DNA from: Desulfatitalea alkaliphila
GTDB taxonomy: Bacteria; Desulfobacterota; Desulfobacteria; Desulfobacterales; Desulfosarcinaceae
Length of the DNA stretch: 64,000 nt
Assembly: GCF_022968795.1 (NCBI RefSeq)
Contig: NZ_JALJRB010000008.1
Span: forward strand, 62,001-126,000
Reading direction: 5' to 3'
The notes below the pieces were generated by a model. The model was not told where the DNA came from. It saw nothing but the letters and a program-made list of their open reading frames with translations, and did no database searches. Position numbers and translations under genes: made by a program. Each line of letters opens with the position of its first letter. Within the stretch, counting starts at the first letter, position 1. Shown piece by piece: positions 27,523 through 34,214 of the stretch.

Positions 27523-29295
27523 TTATTGGCGCCTCCAAAGGAGGATACCCGACAGCAGGGCAATCAAACCGGCAACCCTGGTGGCACCGTGCAACCCCAC
27601 TCCTGAATAATGATCGCCCTCTTGAACCGAAGCGATGAAACATCCGCCACCGCCGCCGGCCGCCGCCGCGGAATCGCCGCCGGTACCGTCGATGGCCCGG
27701 GTGCTGTAGCCCAAACCGCTCGGATCGATGATAACGCCGTTGGCCACCCCATCCATGTCGCCCGTGCCCCCATCCTCGAGTTCCAACACCACCGAACGGC
27801 GATCCGCACTGAAGGTGGCGTAGGGATAGACCGTCCACCCCTGGTCGGGATCGAATTTATACCAACGGGCATCGGCAGGCGCCGCTTGGGAGAAATGGAC
27901 CTTGACCAGGGCCGTGTCGCCCACCTCGTCCAGGTGGATGCGGAAACTGACAACGCCGGTCAAGTGTTCGGGGCAATTGTCCGTCAAGGGCAACTCCCCT
28001 TCCGTCAAGGACCGCATGCCGGAAAGCGTGCCGTTGTCGCCCAGGATTTGCACGGCCACCTGCGGGTTGAACGGATCCGGGGTGTCCACACCTTGCAGAC
28101 GGGCGGTGTGGATCTCATCGAGCACCGCCGGATCGTCGATCACCGTCCATTGTTCGATGACCTGGTCATAGGGGATGCCTTCGTCGGTGACGCCGGCGGT
28201 TGCCGAGTCGATGGTGGTGAAAGCGGACCACTCGGACCAGGCGGAGATTGCGCCGCGGCTGTCGATGAAGCGGGCGCGCCAGTAGTAGATGCTGTCCGGA
28301 TCGAGCACGCTTTCCGGCACCTGCAACCAGCTCAAGGAGCGGCTCAGGGATCTTTGAAACACAACGTACATGGAAAATTCGGCGTGGTCCGGATCGTCCA
28401 TGAGGCTGATTTGATACTCCGTAGCCACATGGGCATCGTTGTCGGCGTCCAAGTAAGCACCGACCGCCAACACCGGCGTAAGCTCGGTCAACCCATCGCC
28501 GTCAACGGTCACCGGCACTAAAGTCGGTTGATCGGGGGGAAGGTTTACAGTCGAAGATGCAGGGGGATGGTCGTCGTCAGCGTCGTTGTCGTCGTCCTCA
28601 CCTGAACCGTCCGCTGCATCATCGCCTGTATTCTCCGCCGGTGGCGGATCATCCGCTTGTCCTCCCTCTTCGGAAGGATTTTCGGTCATCTCGTCACCAT
28701 TGTCGTTGGTCGCATCATCTCCACCTTCATTCCCGGGTGGAGTCGCAGGTGGATGGTTGTCTGCGTCATTACCGCCTTCACCACCCGTTTCTTCCTCAGC
28801 ATCATCTTCGGCGTCGCTGGTCGGCGGTGGATCCACTGAATCCTTCTCTTCAGAGGGGTCGTCGGACTGCTCGTCACCATTGTCGTTGGTAGCATCATCT
28901 CCACCTTCATTCCCGGGTGAAGTCGCAGGTGGATGGTTGTCTGCGTCATTACCGCCTTCATCAATGGGCGCTGCGGGCACCGTGTAGGTGACCTCGTTGG
29001 AGTTGCCGCTCTCCAGATCCGTTTGATAGGCGCGCACCACAAAACGATAGGTCGCGCCTTCGGCCAACCCCGTCACTGTATAGGATGTGGTGTCACCGTC
29101 CCACACCGGAGAACTGAAATCATAGGTCCCATCGCCCTCGCACCGGAACAGCCGGTAGCCATCGGGCGCGGGATCGTTGGCGTCCCACTGCAATGTGACC
29201 TGGGCAGCCCAAGTCGCCGTGATGGGAAGCAGCAGCAGGCCGATGCCGACCACCGTCAGAAGCAATAAAAATGAACCACTCGATTTGTTTTGCAT
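27523..29295 (-). CDS. Secreted FN3/choice-of-anchor-type surface protein with C-terminal Gly-Cys-TM-Arg sorting tail
   Basis: About 590 residues. A signal peptide (SGSFLLLLTVVGIGLLLLPI, then cleavage near ATWA) is followed by an FN3-like domain (about 34-105), a highly acidic linker with an internal repeat (about 110-245), a second FN3-like domain (about 255-365), a beta-rich region like choice-of-anchor U (about 385-545), and a tail of GGGGGCFIAS, one hydrophobic helix and WRRQ. That tail resembles C-terminal sorting signals processed at the envelope. ATG 29295 has GGGGGAT upstream; GTG 29319 is less likely. The leader has a c-di-GMP-I riboswitch, so it is probably an adhesion or matrix protein. 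The binding target is unknown. Confidence 0.85.
   Translation of the reverse strand: MQNKSSGSFLLLLTVVGIGLLLLPITATWAAQVTLQWDANDPAPDGYRLFRCEGDGTYDFSSPVWDGDTTSYTVTGLAEGATYRFVVRAYQTDLESGNSNEVTYTVPAAPIDEGGNDADNHPPATSPGNEGGDDATNDNGDEQSDDPSEEKDSVDPPPTSDAEDDAEEETGGEGGNDADNHPPATPPGNEGGDDATNDNGDEMTENPSEEGGQADDPPPAENTGDDAADGSGEDDDNDADDDHPPASSTVNLPPDQPTLVPVTVDGDGLTELTPVLAVGAYLDADNDAHVATEYQISLMDDPDHAEFSMYVVFQRSLSRSLSWLQVPESVLDPDSIYYWRARFIDSRGAISAWSEWSAFTTIDSATAGVTDEGIPYDQVIEQWTVIDDPAVLDEIHTARLQGVDTPDPFNPQVAVQILGDNGTLSGMRSLTEGELPLTDNCPEHLTGVVSFRIHLDEVGDTALVKVHFSQAAPADARWYKFDPDQGWTVYPYATFSADRRSVVLELEDGGTGDMDGVANGVIIDPSGLGYSTRAIDGTGGDSAAAAGGGGGCFIASVQEGDHYSGVGLHGATRVAGLIALLSGILLWRRQ
28691..28780 (-). repeat. 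90-bp direct repeat, copy 1 (acidic linker)
   Basis: This stretch matches 28871-28960 at all but two positions over 90 bp and the copies are exactly 180 bp apart, in frame. They encode the duplicated EGGNDADNHPPAT and GDDATNDNGDE segments of the surface protein linker. It is probably a recent tandem duplication and a site for repeat-number change. Confidence 0.92.
28871..28960 (-). repeat. 90-bp direct repeat, copy 2 (acidic linker)
   Basis: Second copy of the 28691-28780 repeat, with two substitutions (28891 and 28920). Both copies lie in the acidic linker between the two FN3-like domains. Confidence 0.92.
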
Positions 29296-29354
29296 GACAT
29301 CCCCCGATCGATTCGTCACCGCGCGTACGGCGCGTCCATCGTGAGATGTCGCCT

Positions 29355-29440
29355 CCGCCCGGCAACCCTGCCGCCGTATCCGATACCTTTCGGACTTAGG
29401 CCAGTGGCTTTGCGCCTCACCCTTTCGGGTGGTTTGCCTT
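29355..29440 (-). promoter_or_regulatory. Cyclic-di-GMP-I riboswitch (GEMM-I)
   Basis: Read on the minus strand, the conserved GEMM-I elements occur in order: GGCAAACC (29438-29431), a hairpin ACCC-GAAA-GGGT carrying the GNRA tetraloop, GCGCAAAGCC, GGCCTAAG, a second hairpin with tetraloop-receptor-like sequence, and GGGTTGCCGGG at the 3' end. Order and spacing agree with the Vibrio Vc2 riboswitch. It ends about 60 nt before the start codon of the FN3/anchor gene. The outer P1 pairing is not clear by eye. An 8-bp pairing of 29343-29350 with 29296-29303 would mask the ribosome site, so control may be at translation. Confidence 0.92.
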
Positions 29441-29488
29441 TTTCGAGCTGGAAATCAAAGAACGAGATCTTTTCCGACAAGCTGAATT

Positions 29489-29908: not shown

Positions 29909-31504
29909 CTAATCGGAGGTCACCGCGCGCACATCCCCCTGGCGGGGCAGCCAGCGCAACCCCCCTTTAAAGCCGTAGCAACGATAAATATAAAATGTTT
30001 GCAGCGGGGGGTCGTTCGAATTATCGAGGCCCTGATCAGTGGGATGGATCGGAAAAGCTTCCGGGGGCGCCACTTCCACAAACACCTCCAGTAGTTGTTT
30101 GCGACCCCGGCCGTGAGGAATTACGCCCACCGCGTCTTTGCCCAAAAGATCCGCGTCCTGCCACCAATAATCGTAGACATTGGGTCTGTCCCATCGGTTG
30201 ATGGCGACCGTATAGGGTTGCCCAGGCACATAGAAGGCCAGTTCGCTGGCGATTTGGTAACGCAATCCAAAAAGAAAAGTGTCGTCCGGATCGGGCATTT
30301 CGGCCTGCACCTGCGCCACCCGCTGCCCCAACCGGTCCCAGCCCACGGTTTCCTGGGCGGCGCGATCTAGGTGGGGGGGGACCGGCAGAATCGACCACAG
30401 GACGTGGGCCAGCACCAAGCCCGTCAACACATAGGCGCTGCCGACGGACCACCACCAGAGCTTGCGCGGCGGCGCATTTTCGTCGACTCGATCGGAGGAA
30501 TCTTGCCGGATCCGCGGCAAGCACCAGAGTGCTGTGGCCAGCAATAATGCGGTGACGTACCCGGCACCGGGCCAATTGCCGTACACCCGCGTATGCAGGC
30601 TGAGCAGGCCGAATGCGGCGAAAACCGGAAAGGAAGTAAAAAAGAGATAGGGATAGATCCACTCCCCTCGCGGATAGCGTCCCCGGATCACCACCCACCA
30701 ACCGGCCAGTATCAGCAGAAATACAAGGGGGGTCAAAAGGGCGGCCTGGCTGCCGAGGTAGTCCCCGAAGTATTTGAGATGGATGGCGAACCGTTCGCCG
30801 GCCCCGCCGATATAGGCCACATGGCGCGCCGAATTCCAGTCATGGGCCACATTCCACGCAATGACCGGCGAAAAGAGCAGCAGCCCCAAAACAGCGGCCG
30901 CATAAGGTTTGAGCTGCGCCATCCGGTTGCGGTGAACGGGCGACAACAGCGCATAGGCCATCACACACGGCAGAAAGAGCACCATTGTGTATTTGCTCAA
31001 CAAACCGAAACCGAACCAGAACCCGCCCAAAAGCCAATCACGCCACCGATTCTCTTCCAGACCACGGGCGGCGTAATACACGGACCCTGCCCAACCGGCG
31101 GCCTGCAAACCGTCGGCGGTGGCCAACAGCGCGCCCACGTTGAAAAGCAGCACCGCTTGACTGAGCAGGGCGGCATGCCAGGCGATGCGGGCGCCGAACC
31201 AGTGCCGGGCCATGCGCACCAGGAAAACGCTGGCCACCGCCATGGCCAGGATGGACGGCAGACGGACGCCCAACTCGGTATGCCCGAAAACCAGTGTGGA
31301 AAGGAAGATGGTCCAGCCGATCATGGGCGCCTGGTCGTGGTAGCTCCAATCCAGGTGGCGCGCCCACTGCCAGTAATTGGTTTCGTCGGGCACCAGCAAA
31401 AATCCCTGGGCATAAAAGATGCGCAGCAACGTCGCCAGGCCGATGAGCAGCCAGGTCAATGCCATATAGCGGGCCGCCATCGACCCCCATTTTCGCTTAT
31501 CCAT
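29909..31504 (-). CDS. GT39/ArnT-like membrane glycosyltransferase
   Basis: About 531 residues. Some 11-12 hydrophobic helices occupy residues 10-390 and a soluble domain follows. The first periplasmic loop has PDETNYWQWARHLDWSYHD, including the acidic pair expected for polyprenyl-phosphate-sugar transferases of the PMT/ArnT family. Such enzymes glycosylate lipid A or proteins in the periplasm. ATG 31504 is chosen because it overlaps the pilS stop by 8 bp and the family begins there. Its position after pilC-pilS raises the idea of pilin glycosylation, but this is only context. Confidence 0.82.
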   Translation of the reverse strand: MDKRKWGSMAARYMALTWLLIGLATLLRIFYAQGFLLVPDETNYWQWARHLDWSYHDQAPMIGWTIFLSTLVFGHTELGVRLPSILAMAVASVFLVRMARHWFGARIAWHAALLSQAVLLFNVGALLATADGLQAAGWAGSVYYAARGLEENRWRDWLLGGFWFGFGLLSKYTMVLFLPCVMAYALLSPVHRNRMAQLKPYAAAVLGLLLFSPVIAWNVAHDWNSARHVAYIGGAGERFAIHLKYFGDYLGSQAALLTPLVFLLILAGWWVVIRGRYPRGEWIYPYLFFTSFPVFAAFGLLSLHTRVYGNWPGAGYVTALLLATALWCLPRIRQDSSDRVDENAPPRKLWWWSVGSAYVLTGLVLAHVLWSILPVPPHLDRAAQETVGWDRLGQRVAQVQAEMPDPDDTFLFGLRYQIASELAFYVPGQPYTVAINRWDRPNVYDYWWQDADLLGKDAVGVIPHGRGRKQLLEVFVEVAPPEAFPIHPTDQGLDNSNDPPLQTFYIYRCYGFKGGLRWLPRQGDVRAVTSD

Positions 31505-32864
31505 GAATCTTCCAGTTGTGCGTGCGTTTCGCCGGAGATGCCGACGCTGTTGCACCGTTGGTTTTCAATGCAGGGGGCGTGCGATGCAATTCGAACGACA
31601 CCGTTGTGCCGCCCCACTCCGCCGTGCGAACATCGAGGTGGCTGCCATAGCTTTCCAGAATGCGATGCACAATGGACAGGCCCAACCCCGTACCTTCCGA
31701 CTTGGTGGTGAAAAATGGATCGAAGATGGACTGCAGCACCTCGGCGGGAATACCGCAGCCGTTGTCCGTTATCGCAACCCTCACCGCATTGGGCCGGCCG
31801 GTCGTGGTGCGGATCCGGATCGAACCACCGTCGGGAATGGCCTCGGCCGCATTGAGCAGCAGGTTCCATAGCACCTGGCGGAAATGGGTGGGGTCCATGG
31901 ACACCCACACGTCGCCCACCAGATCGGTTTGAATCTCGCACCGCAGCGCATGATGGGCATCCTTTTCAAACAGGCGGATGACCTCTTCGACAGCCTCTTT
32001 CAAGTGCATCACCTCCACCTTACCCGCCGGCGGCCGTGCGAAGAAAAGAAAATCGTTGACCAGGCTGCTCAGCCGGTCGGTTTCCCGCAAAACGATCTCC
32101 ATCAGCCGCCGATGATCGGCATCGTAACGCAGCTCCTCTTTGAGCAGTTGAATCGAACCCACCAGGGAGGCCAAGGGGTTTTTGATTTCATGGGCCAAGC
32201 CGGCGGCCATTTCACCCATGTAGGCCATCTTTTCAACCTGTTTGACATGAGACTCCATGATCCGCAGCTTTTTCTGGGCTTTGCGGTTCTGTTCGGTCAA
32301 CAAGCCGCACAAGACGGCCACGGCCAGGCAAGCGGCGGTGGTGATGCCGATTTTATAAGTGATCTCGAACCCTGTGGGCTGAAAGGCCAGTGCACCGGGA
32401 ACCAGTGTGAAATGTTCGGCGGCAAAGGTGGAAAATTGAAACAACACCAGCAGCGCGAACAGCACGCTGCTCCAAATGGCGATGATGAGCCCGCCGCGCA
32501 TGAACAGGATCATGCTGGCGTAGATGATCACCACCAAATAGAGAAAAGAGAAGATGCTGAAATAGCCGCCGGTGATGAATACGATGATGGAAACGATCAA
32601 GCCGTCCATGCCGATCTGGACATAGGCGAACAGCCCGTGGCGGCGGATGCGATGGAACACGGCGGCATACAGCAGAGACAGGAAAAAGATCGCCGCGATG
32701 ATCAAATAGAGGACGGTGACCAGCGCGTTGAAAACCGGTCCCTGCTGGCGATATTGTAAATAGAGGGTGGCCATCAGCAACAAGGAGGTGATGACCACGC
32801 GGGCGAACATCAACCAGCGCAACTTGGGGTTGATGGCGCCTGATGATGGGTTGCGGTTTTCCAT
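31497..32864 (-). CDS. pilS: PilS-like NtrC-family sensor histidine kinase
   Basis: 455 residues. Six hydrophobic helices fill residues 17-175, the usual PilS membrane sensor, with no separate periplasmic domain. The H-box is HEIKNPLASLVGSIQ near residue 222, and the ATPase domain has NLLLNAAEAIPDGG (N box), DNGCGIP (G1) and GTGLGLSIVHRI (G2). PilS controls pilin genes through PilR and sigma-54. It follows pilC by 140 bp on the same strand, but the expected pilR gene is replaced by GT39. It is also similar to other NtrB-type kinases, so the name is by context plus topology. Confidence 0.82.
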   Translation of the reverse strand: MENRNPSSGAINPKLRWLMFARVVITSLLLMATLYLQYRQQGPVFNALVTVLYLIIAAIFFLSLLYAAVFHRIRRHGLFAYVQIGMDGLIVSIIVFITGGYFSIFSFLYLVVIIYASMILFMRGGLIIAIWSSVLFALLVLFQFSTFAAEHFTLVPGALAFQPTGFEITYKIGITTAACLAVAVLCGLLTEQNRKAQKKLRIMESHVKQVEKMAYMGEMAAGLAHEIKNPLASLVGSIQLLKEELRYDADHRRLMEIVLRETDRLSSLVNDFLFFARPPAGKVEVMHLKEAVEEVIRLFEKDAHHALRCEIQTDLVGDVWVSMDPTHFRQVLWNLLLNAAEAIPDGGSIRIRTTTGRPNAVRVAITDNGCGIPAEVLQSIFDPFFTTKSEGTGLGLSIVHRILESYGSHLDVRTAEWGGTTVSFELHRTPPALKTNGATASASPAKRTHNWKIHG

Positions 32865-33005
32865 CTCGGCTGCGGATGCGTCTCCGTGAGGGGTTAGGGG
32901 TCGTCGTTCCGGTTCAACGGCTGCCCGTGCATCCTGCAGGGCATCCCGAAAGTAGTCACGGGCCCCCGTGCAAACGGGCGGCCCGTGGAATAAATGGCAA
33001 ACGGA

Positions 33006-34214
33006 TTAATTAATGGCGCCGGCCATCTGGAAGATCGGCAGGTACATGGAGACGATGAGGCCGCCGACCACAACGCCCAGAAAGATGATCATGGCCGGTT
33101 CGATCATGGCCGTCAGGTTCTCGACCGCCTGATCCACCTCTTCATCATAAAAATCGGCGATCTTCTCCAGCATGGCATCCAGGGCGCCGGTGGATTCGCC
33201 CACGGCGATCATCTGGCACACCATGGGCGGGAACACACCGCTGGCTTGCAATGGATCGGCCATGGTGCGTCCCTCGGCGATGCCCGAGCGCACGGAATAG
33301 ATGGCCTTCTCAACGATCCGATTGCCGGACGTCTTGGCCACTATGTCAAGGGCTTCCAGGATGGCCACGCCACTGGCCAGCATGGTGCCCATGGTCCGTG
33401 TGAACTTGGCCACCGCCACTTTGCGCAACAACATGCCGAAGACCGGCAATTTCAGAACCATGGCATCCACCGTCAACCGCCCCTTGTCGGTCTTGTAATA
33501 TTTGCGGAAAGCAAAAAAGAAGATGATCAAGGCGCCGATGATCAGGTGCAGATTGTCCTTGACGAATTCACTCATGGCGATGACGATCAGTGTCGGTCCC
33601 GGCAGCGTACTGCCGAAATCGGCGAACATCTCTTGGAAGACGGGAATGACGAAAACGAGAATTATGGCCACCACGACCACTGCCACGAAAATGGTGATGG
33701 CCGGATAGACCATGGCGCCCTTGACTTTTCGCTTGAGCCGGGCCGCTTTTTCCATGTACCCGGCCAAACGCTTCAAAATGACGTCCAGGATGCCGCCCGC
33801 CTCACCGGCAGCCACCATGTTGATGAACAGGTTGTCGAAATGCTTGGGGTACTTCTTCAGCGCATCGGCCAGGGTGGAACCGCTCTCGACCTGGTCCTTG
33901 ATGGACTTGAGCATCTTTTTGAAGGTGGCGTTCTCCTGCTGGGACTGCAGGATATCCATGCATTGAATGATGGGCAAACCGGCGTCGATCATGGTGGAGA
34001 ACTGGCGGGCGAACACCATGATATCTTTTTCTTTGACTTTGGGCTGGAGAAAAGAGACGTTTTCGAGCAGATCCTTGGGTTTTTTCTTGATCTTGGTGGG
34101 AGCTATGCGGAGACGATTCAACTGGGCCCGCACCGCCTCTTCGCTGATCGACTCCATTTGCCCTTTTTGGATCTGATTGTTGCGATTTTTACCTTCCCAC
34201 AGATAAACCGGCAT
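33006..34214 (-). CDS. pilC: Type IV pilus inner membrane platform protein PilC
   Basis: 402 residues, GspF/PilC family. Two cytoplasmic four-helix domains (about 70-165 and 270-365) and three membrane helices (about 170-195, 220-240, 375-400) are visible. The motifs FARQFSTMIDAGLPI and LKKYPKHFDNLFINMVAAGE are typical. It links the PilB/PilT motors to the pilus base. The start has GGGAGAAGGGT upstream. No pilB or pilT is adjacent within the window; a sigma-54 promoter lies 270 bp upstream. Confidence 0.95.
   Translation of the reverse strand: MPVYLWEGKNRNNQIQKGQMESISEEAVRAQLNRLRIAPTKIKKKPKDLLENVSFLQPKVKEKDIMVFARQFSTMIDAGLPIIQCMDILQSQQENATFKKMLKSIKDQVESGSTLADALKKYPKHFDNLFINMVAAGEAGGILDVILKRLAGYMEKAARLKRKVKGAMVYPAITIFVAVVVVAIILVFVIPVFQEMFADFGSTLPGPTLIVIAMSEFVKDNLHLIIGALIIFFFAFRKYYKTDKGRLTVDAMVLKLPVFGMLLRKVAVAKFTRTMGTMLASGVAILEALDIVAKTSGNRIVEKAIYSVRSGIAEGRTMADPLQASGVFPPMVCQMIAVGESTGALDAMLEKIADFYDEEVDQAVENLTAMIEPAMIIFLGVVVGGLIVSMYLPIFQMAGAIN

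Follow-up and report, generated by a model that had tools for sequence, protein, structure and literature searches.

The 64,000-nucleotide stretch of DNA analysed here (the window, 64 kb) carries on its minus strand a c-di-GMP-I (GEMM-I) riboswitch aptamer, a short leader and, directly after a Shine-Dalgarno sequence (SD), the gene for a 590-aa protein. Table 1 lists these features together with the leader strands discussed below.

Table 1. Features of the aptamer, leader and gene, in window coordinates
Feature	Position	Strand	Remarks
Gene for 590-aa FN3/choice-of-anchor-U protein	27523..29295	-	ATG at 29295 after SD
SD-side strand of masking (OFF) stem, AUCGGGGGAUGUC	29296..29308	-	contains SD GGGGGA, 29305-29300
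ON hairpin, 3' strand, CGCCGUACGCGCGGU	29318..29332	-	pairs with 29363-29350
Anti-SD strand, GACAUCUCACGAU	29338..29350	-	in loop of ON hairpin; G29350 shared
ON hairpin, 5' strand, GCCGGGCGGAGGCG	29350..29363	-	pairs with 29332-29318
Base helix P1a, 3' strand, CGGGC	29357..29361	-	also used by alternative hairpin
GEMM-I (c-di-GMP-I) riboswitch aptamer	29358..29448	-	RF01051 match
G aligned with Vc2 G20, selectivity position	29438	-	column G11, invariant in the 53 A3 sequences
Base helix P1a, 5' strand, GCUCG	29444..29448	-	partner 29361-29357

The aptamer and the gene it precedes

A covariance-model search matched the aptamer to Rfam family RF01051 over the full model (1-87 of 87) with a score of 77.4 bits (E 1.7e-13; the gathering score is 35), and the only other Rfam family to reach its gathering threshold within the 64 kb is a tRNA. 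The earlier note on this DNA had placed a GEMM-I core at 29440-29355 (-) and proposed a search of the minus strand with RF01051; the significant full-length match, which lies close to that interval, bears the core out. All of the CGAAAG loop (a GAAA loop) and the GGCAAA and CGCAAAG binding-pocket bases are found in the aptamer, the roles of single bases in this pocket being known from the Vc2 structure. The base helix P1a is paired in 98.3% of cells across 24 family sequences, with changes on both sides at two of its five pairs. Including this one, the host genome has five GEMM-I elements.

The downstream protein consists of an N-terminal hydrophobic segment, an FN3 domain (PF00041, E 1.6e-7), an acidic linker, a choice-of-anchor U domain (NF041766, 86.5 bits against a curated cut-off of 32, E 1.6e-24) and a C-terminal tail, and these two domain matches agree with the FN3/anchor protein that had been named as the target. 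Five named relatives come from metagenome-assembled genomes, three from ones labelled Desulfatitalea, a genus of the Desulfosarcinaceae in the Desulfobacterales, and two from one labelled Deltaproteobacteria. The tail of the window protein reads GGGGGCFI, then a hydrophobic stretch, then WRRQ. A tail of this kind after the choice-of-anchor U domain (window 27523-27670), often glycine-rich, CFI-like, hydrophobic and with a short end, recurs in many class A relatives (defined below), though not in all; it was not seen in L068 or L084, for instance. No named C-terminal sorting signal (CTERM model, NCBIfam) was found in the window protein (E up to 1) or in ten relatives (E up to 0.05), and the glycine-rich/CFI tail may be an unnamed surface-sorting signal. 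Near the riboswitch gene, at 31497-34214, lie genes of the sort found in type IV pilus or type II secretion systems: one for a histidine kinase whose membrane domain is PilS-like (31497-32864, -), the other for a T2SSF protein of the PilC type (33006-34214, -).

An upstream in-frame GTG at 29319 is disfavoured as the start codon, both because the SD belongs to the ATG at 29295 and because the corresponding GTG in L066 runs into a stop. A pattern scan of the leader found no intrinsic terminator on the coding (minus) strand between the aptamer and the start codon. We therefore reject a transcription-terminating riboswitch for the FN3/anchor gene and take translational control, the reading proposed earlier, as the natural one; the conserved SD-masking stem described below supports it further. 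Two other GEMM-I elements of the host genome, L003 and L004, have terminator-like hairpins and T runs downstream, as judged by eye.

Two crossing stems in the leader

Positions 29350-29343 (GACATCTC) can pair with 29303-29296 (GGGATGTC) in a stem of 8 bp with one U-G, exactly as the earlier note described, and this turns out to be part of a longer one. Past a single A-G mismatch the stem gains four more pairs (29341-29338 with 29308-29305), making a masking stem of 12 bp over 13 positions, 29350-29338 with 29308-29296. It spans the SD and its end adjoins the ATG. The stem was also said to cover the ribosome site, which its containing the SD bears out and which the following compensatory changes back.

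We assessed conservation in two alignments. The first, A1, is a MAFFT alignment of the 24 distinct aptamer-plus-leader sequences of window-type family genes, the window included. The second, A3, adds 29 sequences from other families of the order (n=53), out of a total of 60 FN3 sequences in class A and at order level; "class A" (window-type) here means an FN3 homologue that also matches the middle region of the window protein. L199 and L231 were excluded from A3, as were L216, L226, L227, L230 and L236, whose leaders are distant or long.

In A1, 84.0% of masking-stem cells hold standard pairs, and both sides have changed at nine of the 12 modelled pairs. Taken together with P1a, the stem is paired in 88.2% of cells compared with 80.7% after shuffling (none of 500 shuffles as high) and 31.2-45.9% after sliding by one to three columns, a comparison that favours the modelled stems because both were drawn after inspection of the same sequences. 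In A3, the masking stem is paired in 79.5% of cells against 68.8% in shuffles (0/500) and, subject to the same caveat, 40.9-60.2% when slid, with 60.2% still paired at a slide of -3. Changes on both sides occur in 105 A3 cells, spread over 11 of 12 pairs, whereas the shuffled mean is 45.0 (0/500); the count of changed pairs alone is no higher than in shuffles (60/500).

The masking stem is crossed by an alternative structure, the ON hairpin. Its 5' side is made of the aptamer's last GCC, then the 3' strand of P1a, then a few more bases, and its 3' side is a conserved strand resembling UCGCACGG that complements them. Read along the RNA, the P1a 3' strand is followed by the anti-SD strand, the partner strand and then the SD, with the anti-SD in the loop of the ON hairpin, so the ON hairpin and the masking stem cross. 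Since the ON hairpin also removes P1a, it is the natural candidate for the ligand-free, SD-open fold. In A1, 88.4% of its cells are paired, with both-side changes at six of 12 modelled pairs. For nine pairs in A3, 85.2% of cells are paired versus 29.5-39.0% when slid, again with the hairpin drawn from the sequences being scored, and 24 cells have changed on both sides versus 9.8 in shuffles (0/500). The number of changed pairs alone falls within the shuffles (86/500), and sliding the hairpin by +2 yields equally many changed cells (24).

A nested hairpin (GCGC pairing with GCGC) had been noted inside the masking stem. It is present in the window but not conserved as such, and it draws on the same bases as the ON hairpin. 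We rejected it as the key element; the conserved strand there pairs with the aptamer's 3' end.

Shuffle controls on single sequences gave, for the class A leaders (n=24), medians of 0.81 against 0.53 for the ON hairpin and 0.87 against 0.54 for masking, and with both values above 0.5 in all 24. The ON signal of the window itself is modest (0.72 against a shuffle mean of 0.51, with three of 20 shuffles as high), and masking of the SD by the window's own leader (L089) reaches 0.85, higher than in any of 40 shuffles, which average 0.54. For 36 order-level leaders outside the family, taken among the matches listed, the medians are 0.77 against 0.47 (ON) and 0.92 against 0.55 (masking), and both features exceed 0.5 in 32 of these 36. 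The minimum-energy fold of 29470-29260 includes the masking stem, and folding of this region has a z of -2.33, with 5 of 200 shuffles folding as well.

The leader is thus predicted to have two states expected of a translational (SD-masking) riboswitch: one in which the SD is paired through conserved complementarity, and an alternative that is incompatible with masking and vies with the aptamer, this second state being the weaker in single-sequence shuffles. Shuffled leaders also mask the SD (0.54 both for the class A median and for the window), as would be expected if the aptamer were real and the stem no more than chance, unused complementarity in a G+C-rich leader. We give that explanation almost no credence, given the compensatory changes at most masking-stem pairs and across many families.

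Relatives, partner genes and ligand

Within the family, 28 of 30 genomes contain GEMM-I, with 121 matches in total, and we analysed the 114 loci at 35 bits or more, leaving out seven. With the search confined to ORFs whose start lies no more than 450 bases from the aptamer, an FN3 homologue was found downstream of 48 of these loci; 26 of the 48 are window-type, and they yield the 24 distinct class A sequences. Viewed from the protein side, GEMM-I is found just upstream of 46 out of 88 FN3 proteins picked among the matches listed.

For wider searches we used R1, a covariance model of the aptamer plus the masking stem. At E 1e-6 it has matches in 133 of the 242 genomes of the order; some of the rows listed cover the aptamer only. 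From the matches listed we chose 61 loci outside the family, these being better-scoring full-length rows, and every one of them matches R1 again. Downstream of 36 of these chosen loci lies an FN3 match, weak in a few cases; the other 25 lack one. By eye, some of the 25 have the same leader with a protein that is truncated or went undetected (e.g., L195, L221, L235), and others end in terminators (e.g., L233, L242, L250). At the phylum level, R1 matches 81 of 297 genomes at E 1e-8, and an FN3 match, in several cases weak, lies downstream in 16 of the 23 loci examined at this level; the riboswitch was poorly located in L258 and L273. The leaders of L254-L256 retain both complementarities by eye.

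Class B comprises FN3 genes without a match to the middle region and the choice-of-anchor U domain. Class B leaders are unlike class A in sequence and have a similar crossing layout; a similar topology appears in at least two leader classes of unlike sequence, as well as in several paralogues of some genomes. We aligned 21 of the 22 class B sequences (A4, excluding L118). In A4, the crossing stem 13-21/43-51, which overlaps the aptamer only at the outer GGC, is paired in 91.1% of cells compared with 88.1% in shuffles (6/500), with both-side changes at four pairs (2/500) and pair types no more numerous than in shuffles (336/500). The anti-SD:SD stem is paired in 81.4% of cells compared with 76.7% (0/500), with three changed pairs (132/500). 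In single-sequence shuffles (n=22), class B gives 0.86 against 0.61 for masking and 0.42 against 0.39 for the ON hairpin; both features exceed 0.5 in only six of 22 leaders, and this measure shows no ON excess. We take class B to follow the same switching logic as class A, which is less firmly shown for it. The host's other FN3-linked GEMM-I (L001/L085, G000:C34:153911-154003) belongs to class B and precedes the gene for a large protein that combines FN3 with InlB-like repeats and several PKD domains.

Other GEMM-I arrangements were seen along the way. In the host genome, L004/L139 (G000:C29:29045-29122) precedes the gene for a 727-aa PocR-PAS-GGDEF protein, with a hairpin and T run between them by eye, and ORFs of similar length follow GEMM-I in the relatives L134, L135, L137 and L144. 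It is possible that c-di-GMP feeds back on its own synthase at L004/L139. Two GEMM-I lie about 720 bases apart at L127/L129 (G011:C1:2577007-2577908) and three matches fall within about 600 bases at G518:C2:145876-146481, both of which are possible tandem arrangements.

One selectivity position bears on the likely ligand. Alignment column G11 is, we take it, Vc2 G20 in the usual numbering, where cGAMP-type relatives have A instead of G (the A/G rule). The base is G in 47 of the 48 family FN3 loci, L141 having C. Among the 66 other family GEMM-I loci, A is found in L090, L108 and the weak match L171, and L130 is truncated at this position. L090 (G029:C144:2734-2827) and L108 (G008:C34:219619-219715) are strong aptamers, their A is presumably the state of cGAMP-sensing GEMM-Ib, and no FN3 match was found downstream of either in ORFs starting within 450 bases. 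The host genome contains 14 GGDEF matches, which makes c-di-GMP signalling in the host likely. Together with the selectivity G, this makes c-di-GMP the expected ligand of the window aptamer. The other candidate is cGAMP, which GEMM-Ib riboswitches of Geobacter sulfurreducens bind (PMC8835794, in part). Excerpts of PMC9262584 describe the Vc2 G20 position as affecting selectivity, as a factor rather than a hard filter, but with G there in the window and in all 53 A3 sequences, we consider cGAMP in place of c-di-GMP very improbable.

Proposed switching and known systems

Folding energies depend on how much of the RNA has been made. When the transcript is ended at alignment column 140, before the SD, 22 of 24 sequences are more stable with the ON hairpin than with the aptamer folded and ligand-free; the median advantage over all 24 is 8.1 kcal/mol, and that of the window is 6.4 kcal/mol. 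L084 and L092 are the exceptions in the register used; their partner strand seems to be shifted to a different register, so that only three and four of the seven ON pairs could be enforced. Once the RNA is full length, and with no ligand, the OFF stem plus aptamer lies below the ON hairpin in 15 of 24 sequences (by 2.5 kcal/mol in the window), and in all 24 the SD is no more than 0.40 unpaired in the free ensemble.

The earlier note had suggested folding the leader with and without ligand-bound P1, and the outcome was mixed. In every one of the 24 sequences, enforcing the aptamer leaves the SD less exposed than enforcing the ON hairpin does, but the SD is masked without ligand too; in the window, the SD is 0.33 unpaired under an enforced ON hairpin, 0.23 under an enforced aptamer and 0.23 when neither is imposed. 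A switch governed by thermodynamics alone would be off most of the time, and the full-length energies do not support one. The switch, if it works, must therefore be decided during transcription.

We consider it probable that the window leader is a c-di-GMP-I riboswitch acting as a kinetic translational OFF switch that lowers the FN3/choice-of-anchor-U protein. Sequence comparison and folding provide the basis: an aptamer, two crossing conserved stems, no terminator found in the leader and linkage to FN3 genes. From these we infer the identity of the ligand, the lowering of expression by c-di-GMP and the kinetic choice during transcription. Without ligand, 29363-29350 would pair with 29332-29318 as the RNA is transcribed; this ON hairpin would unfold the base helix and hold the anti-SD in its loop, leaving the SD free when it emerges, and protein would be made. 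If c-di-GMP bound first, the base helix would be locked and the alternative hairpin blocked, the anti-SD (29350-29338) would pair with 29308-29296, and translation would be repressed with the SD hidden. The alternative hairpin would thereby supply the route from ligand to stem that was missing from the earlier reading.

That 15 of 24 full-length leaders, the window included, prefer the masked fold in the absence of ligand also fits a different account, in which a real GEMM-I riboswitch has near-constitutive masking and c-di-GMP, when little translation takes place, exerts its main effect by Rho-dependent termination or mRNA decay. Untranslated leaders are known Rho targets. However, a conserved SD-freeing hairpin would have no purpose under constitutive masking, and that hairpin is dominant before the SD is transcribed, so we regard the account as unlikely.

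The predicted polarity follows from which structure uses the base helix. The ON hairpin takes the 3' strand of P1a and crosses the masking stem, and c-di-GMP is therefore most likely an OFF signal. The opposite polarity has a precedent in Bc2, upstream of cap in Bacillus thuringiensis, which is described in part of PMC4933901 as a GEMM-I ON switch for an adhesion protein. In the window, however, the masking stem leaves the aptamer untouched and only the SD-freeing hairpin uses the base-helix strand, so a locked aptamer should favour masking, and we think it improbable that c-di-GMP turns this gene on.

Extending the OFF switch beyond the window, we lean towards a phylum-wide c-di-GMP regulon in the Desulfobacterota (Thermodesulfobacteriota), in which GEMM-I and two crossing hairpins shut off secreted FN3 proteins as c-di-GMP rises. 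If this is true, surface proteins would be lowered, not raised, on entry to the high-c-di-GMP state; OFF polarity, if it holds, runs contrary to the simple view in which surface adhesins rise with c-di-GMP. For the secreted FN3 proteins of sulfate-reducing bacteria and related organisms, a large family about which little is known, the model predicts c-di-GMP control down to the base pair. Its compensatory changes are natural, ready-made mutants, and the leaders form a natural series of translational GEMM-I platforms, of which Vc2 is the best known, for studying how a kinetic translational switch is tuned.

Membership of RF01051 is clear, and the switching logic is Vc2-like and already established elsewhere. 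Our search of the open-licence literature found no description of c-di-GMP riboswitches before Desulfobacterota FN3 proteins, which is weak evidence; neither the conserved platform of two hairpins nor its association with secreted FN3 proteins across the Desulfobacterota seems to have been described in the literature searched.

Vc2, from V. cholerae, has tfoY as its target. According to excerpts of PMC9262584, it is a translational OFF switch in which P1 plays the key role, and its kinetic control is an assumption of its authors. The window element resembles it in having a GEMM-I aptamer and, as we read the leader, in being a translational, kinetic OFF switch with P1 decisive. Unlike Vc2, it belongs to another phylum and precedes another gene, and its leader is short (about 60 nt), has two crossing hairpins and is found over many genomes. 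Masking of a ribosome-binding site distant from the aptamer features in the title of Inuzuka 2018, as cited in a portion of PMC11218506.

Cd1 of Clostridioides difficile, on the evidence of the same excerpts of PMC9262584, shares the four-strand logic in which a strand of the aptamer base is set against a downstream strand and ligand favours the repressing fold, with kinetic control indicated by modelling. It differs in that its output is an intrinsic terminator and that NMR signals supporting the P1 helix were, in those excerpts, not detected. Bc2 is alike in placing a surface adhesion protein under GEMM-I control, but it works as a transcriptional ON switch by antitermination (PMC4933901, in part), whereas the window element is translational and probably OFF. 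The Geobacter GEMM-Ib riboswitches belong to the same RNA family in another lineage of the former Deltaproteobacteria; their ligand, as given in part of PMC8835794, is cGAMP, whereas the window element has G at the selectivity position.
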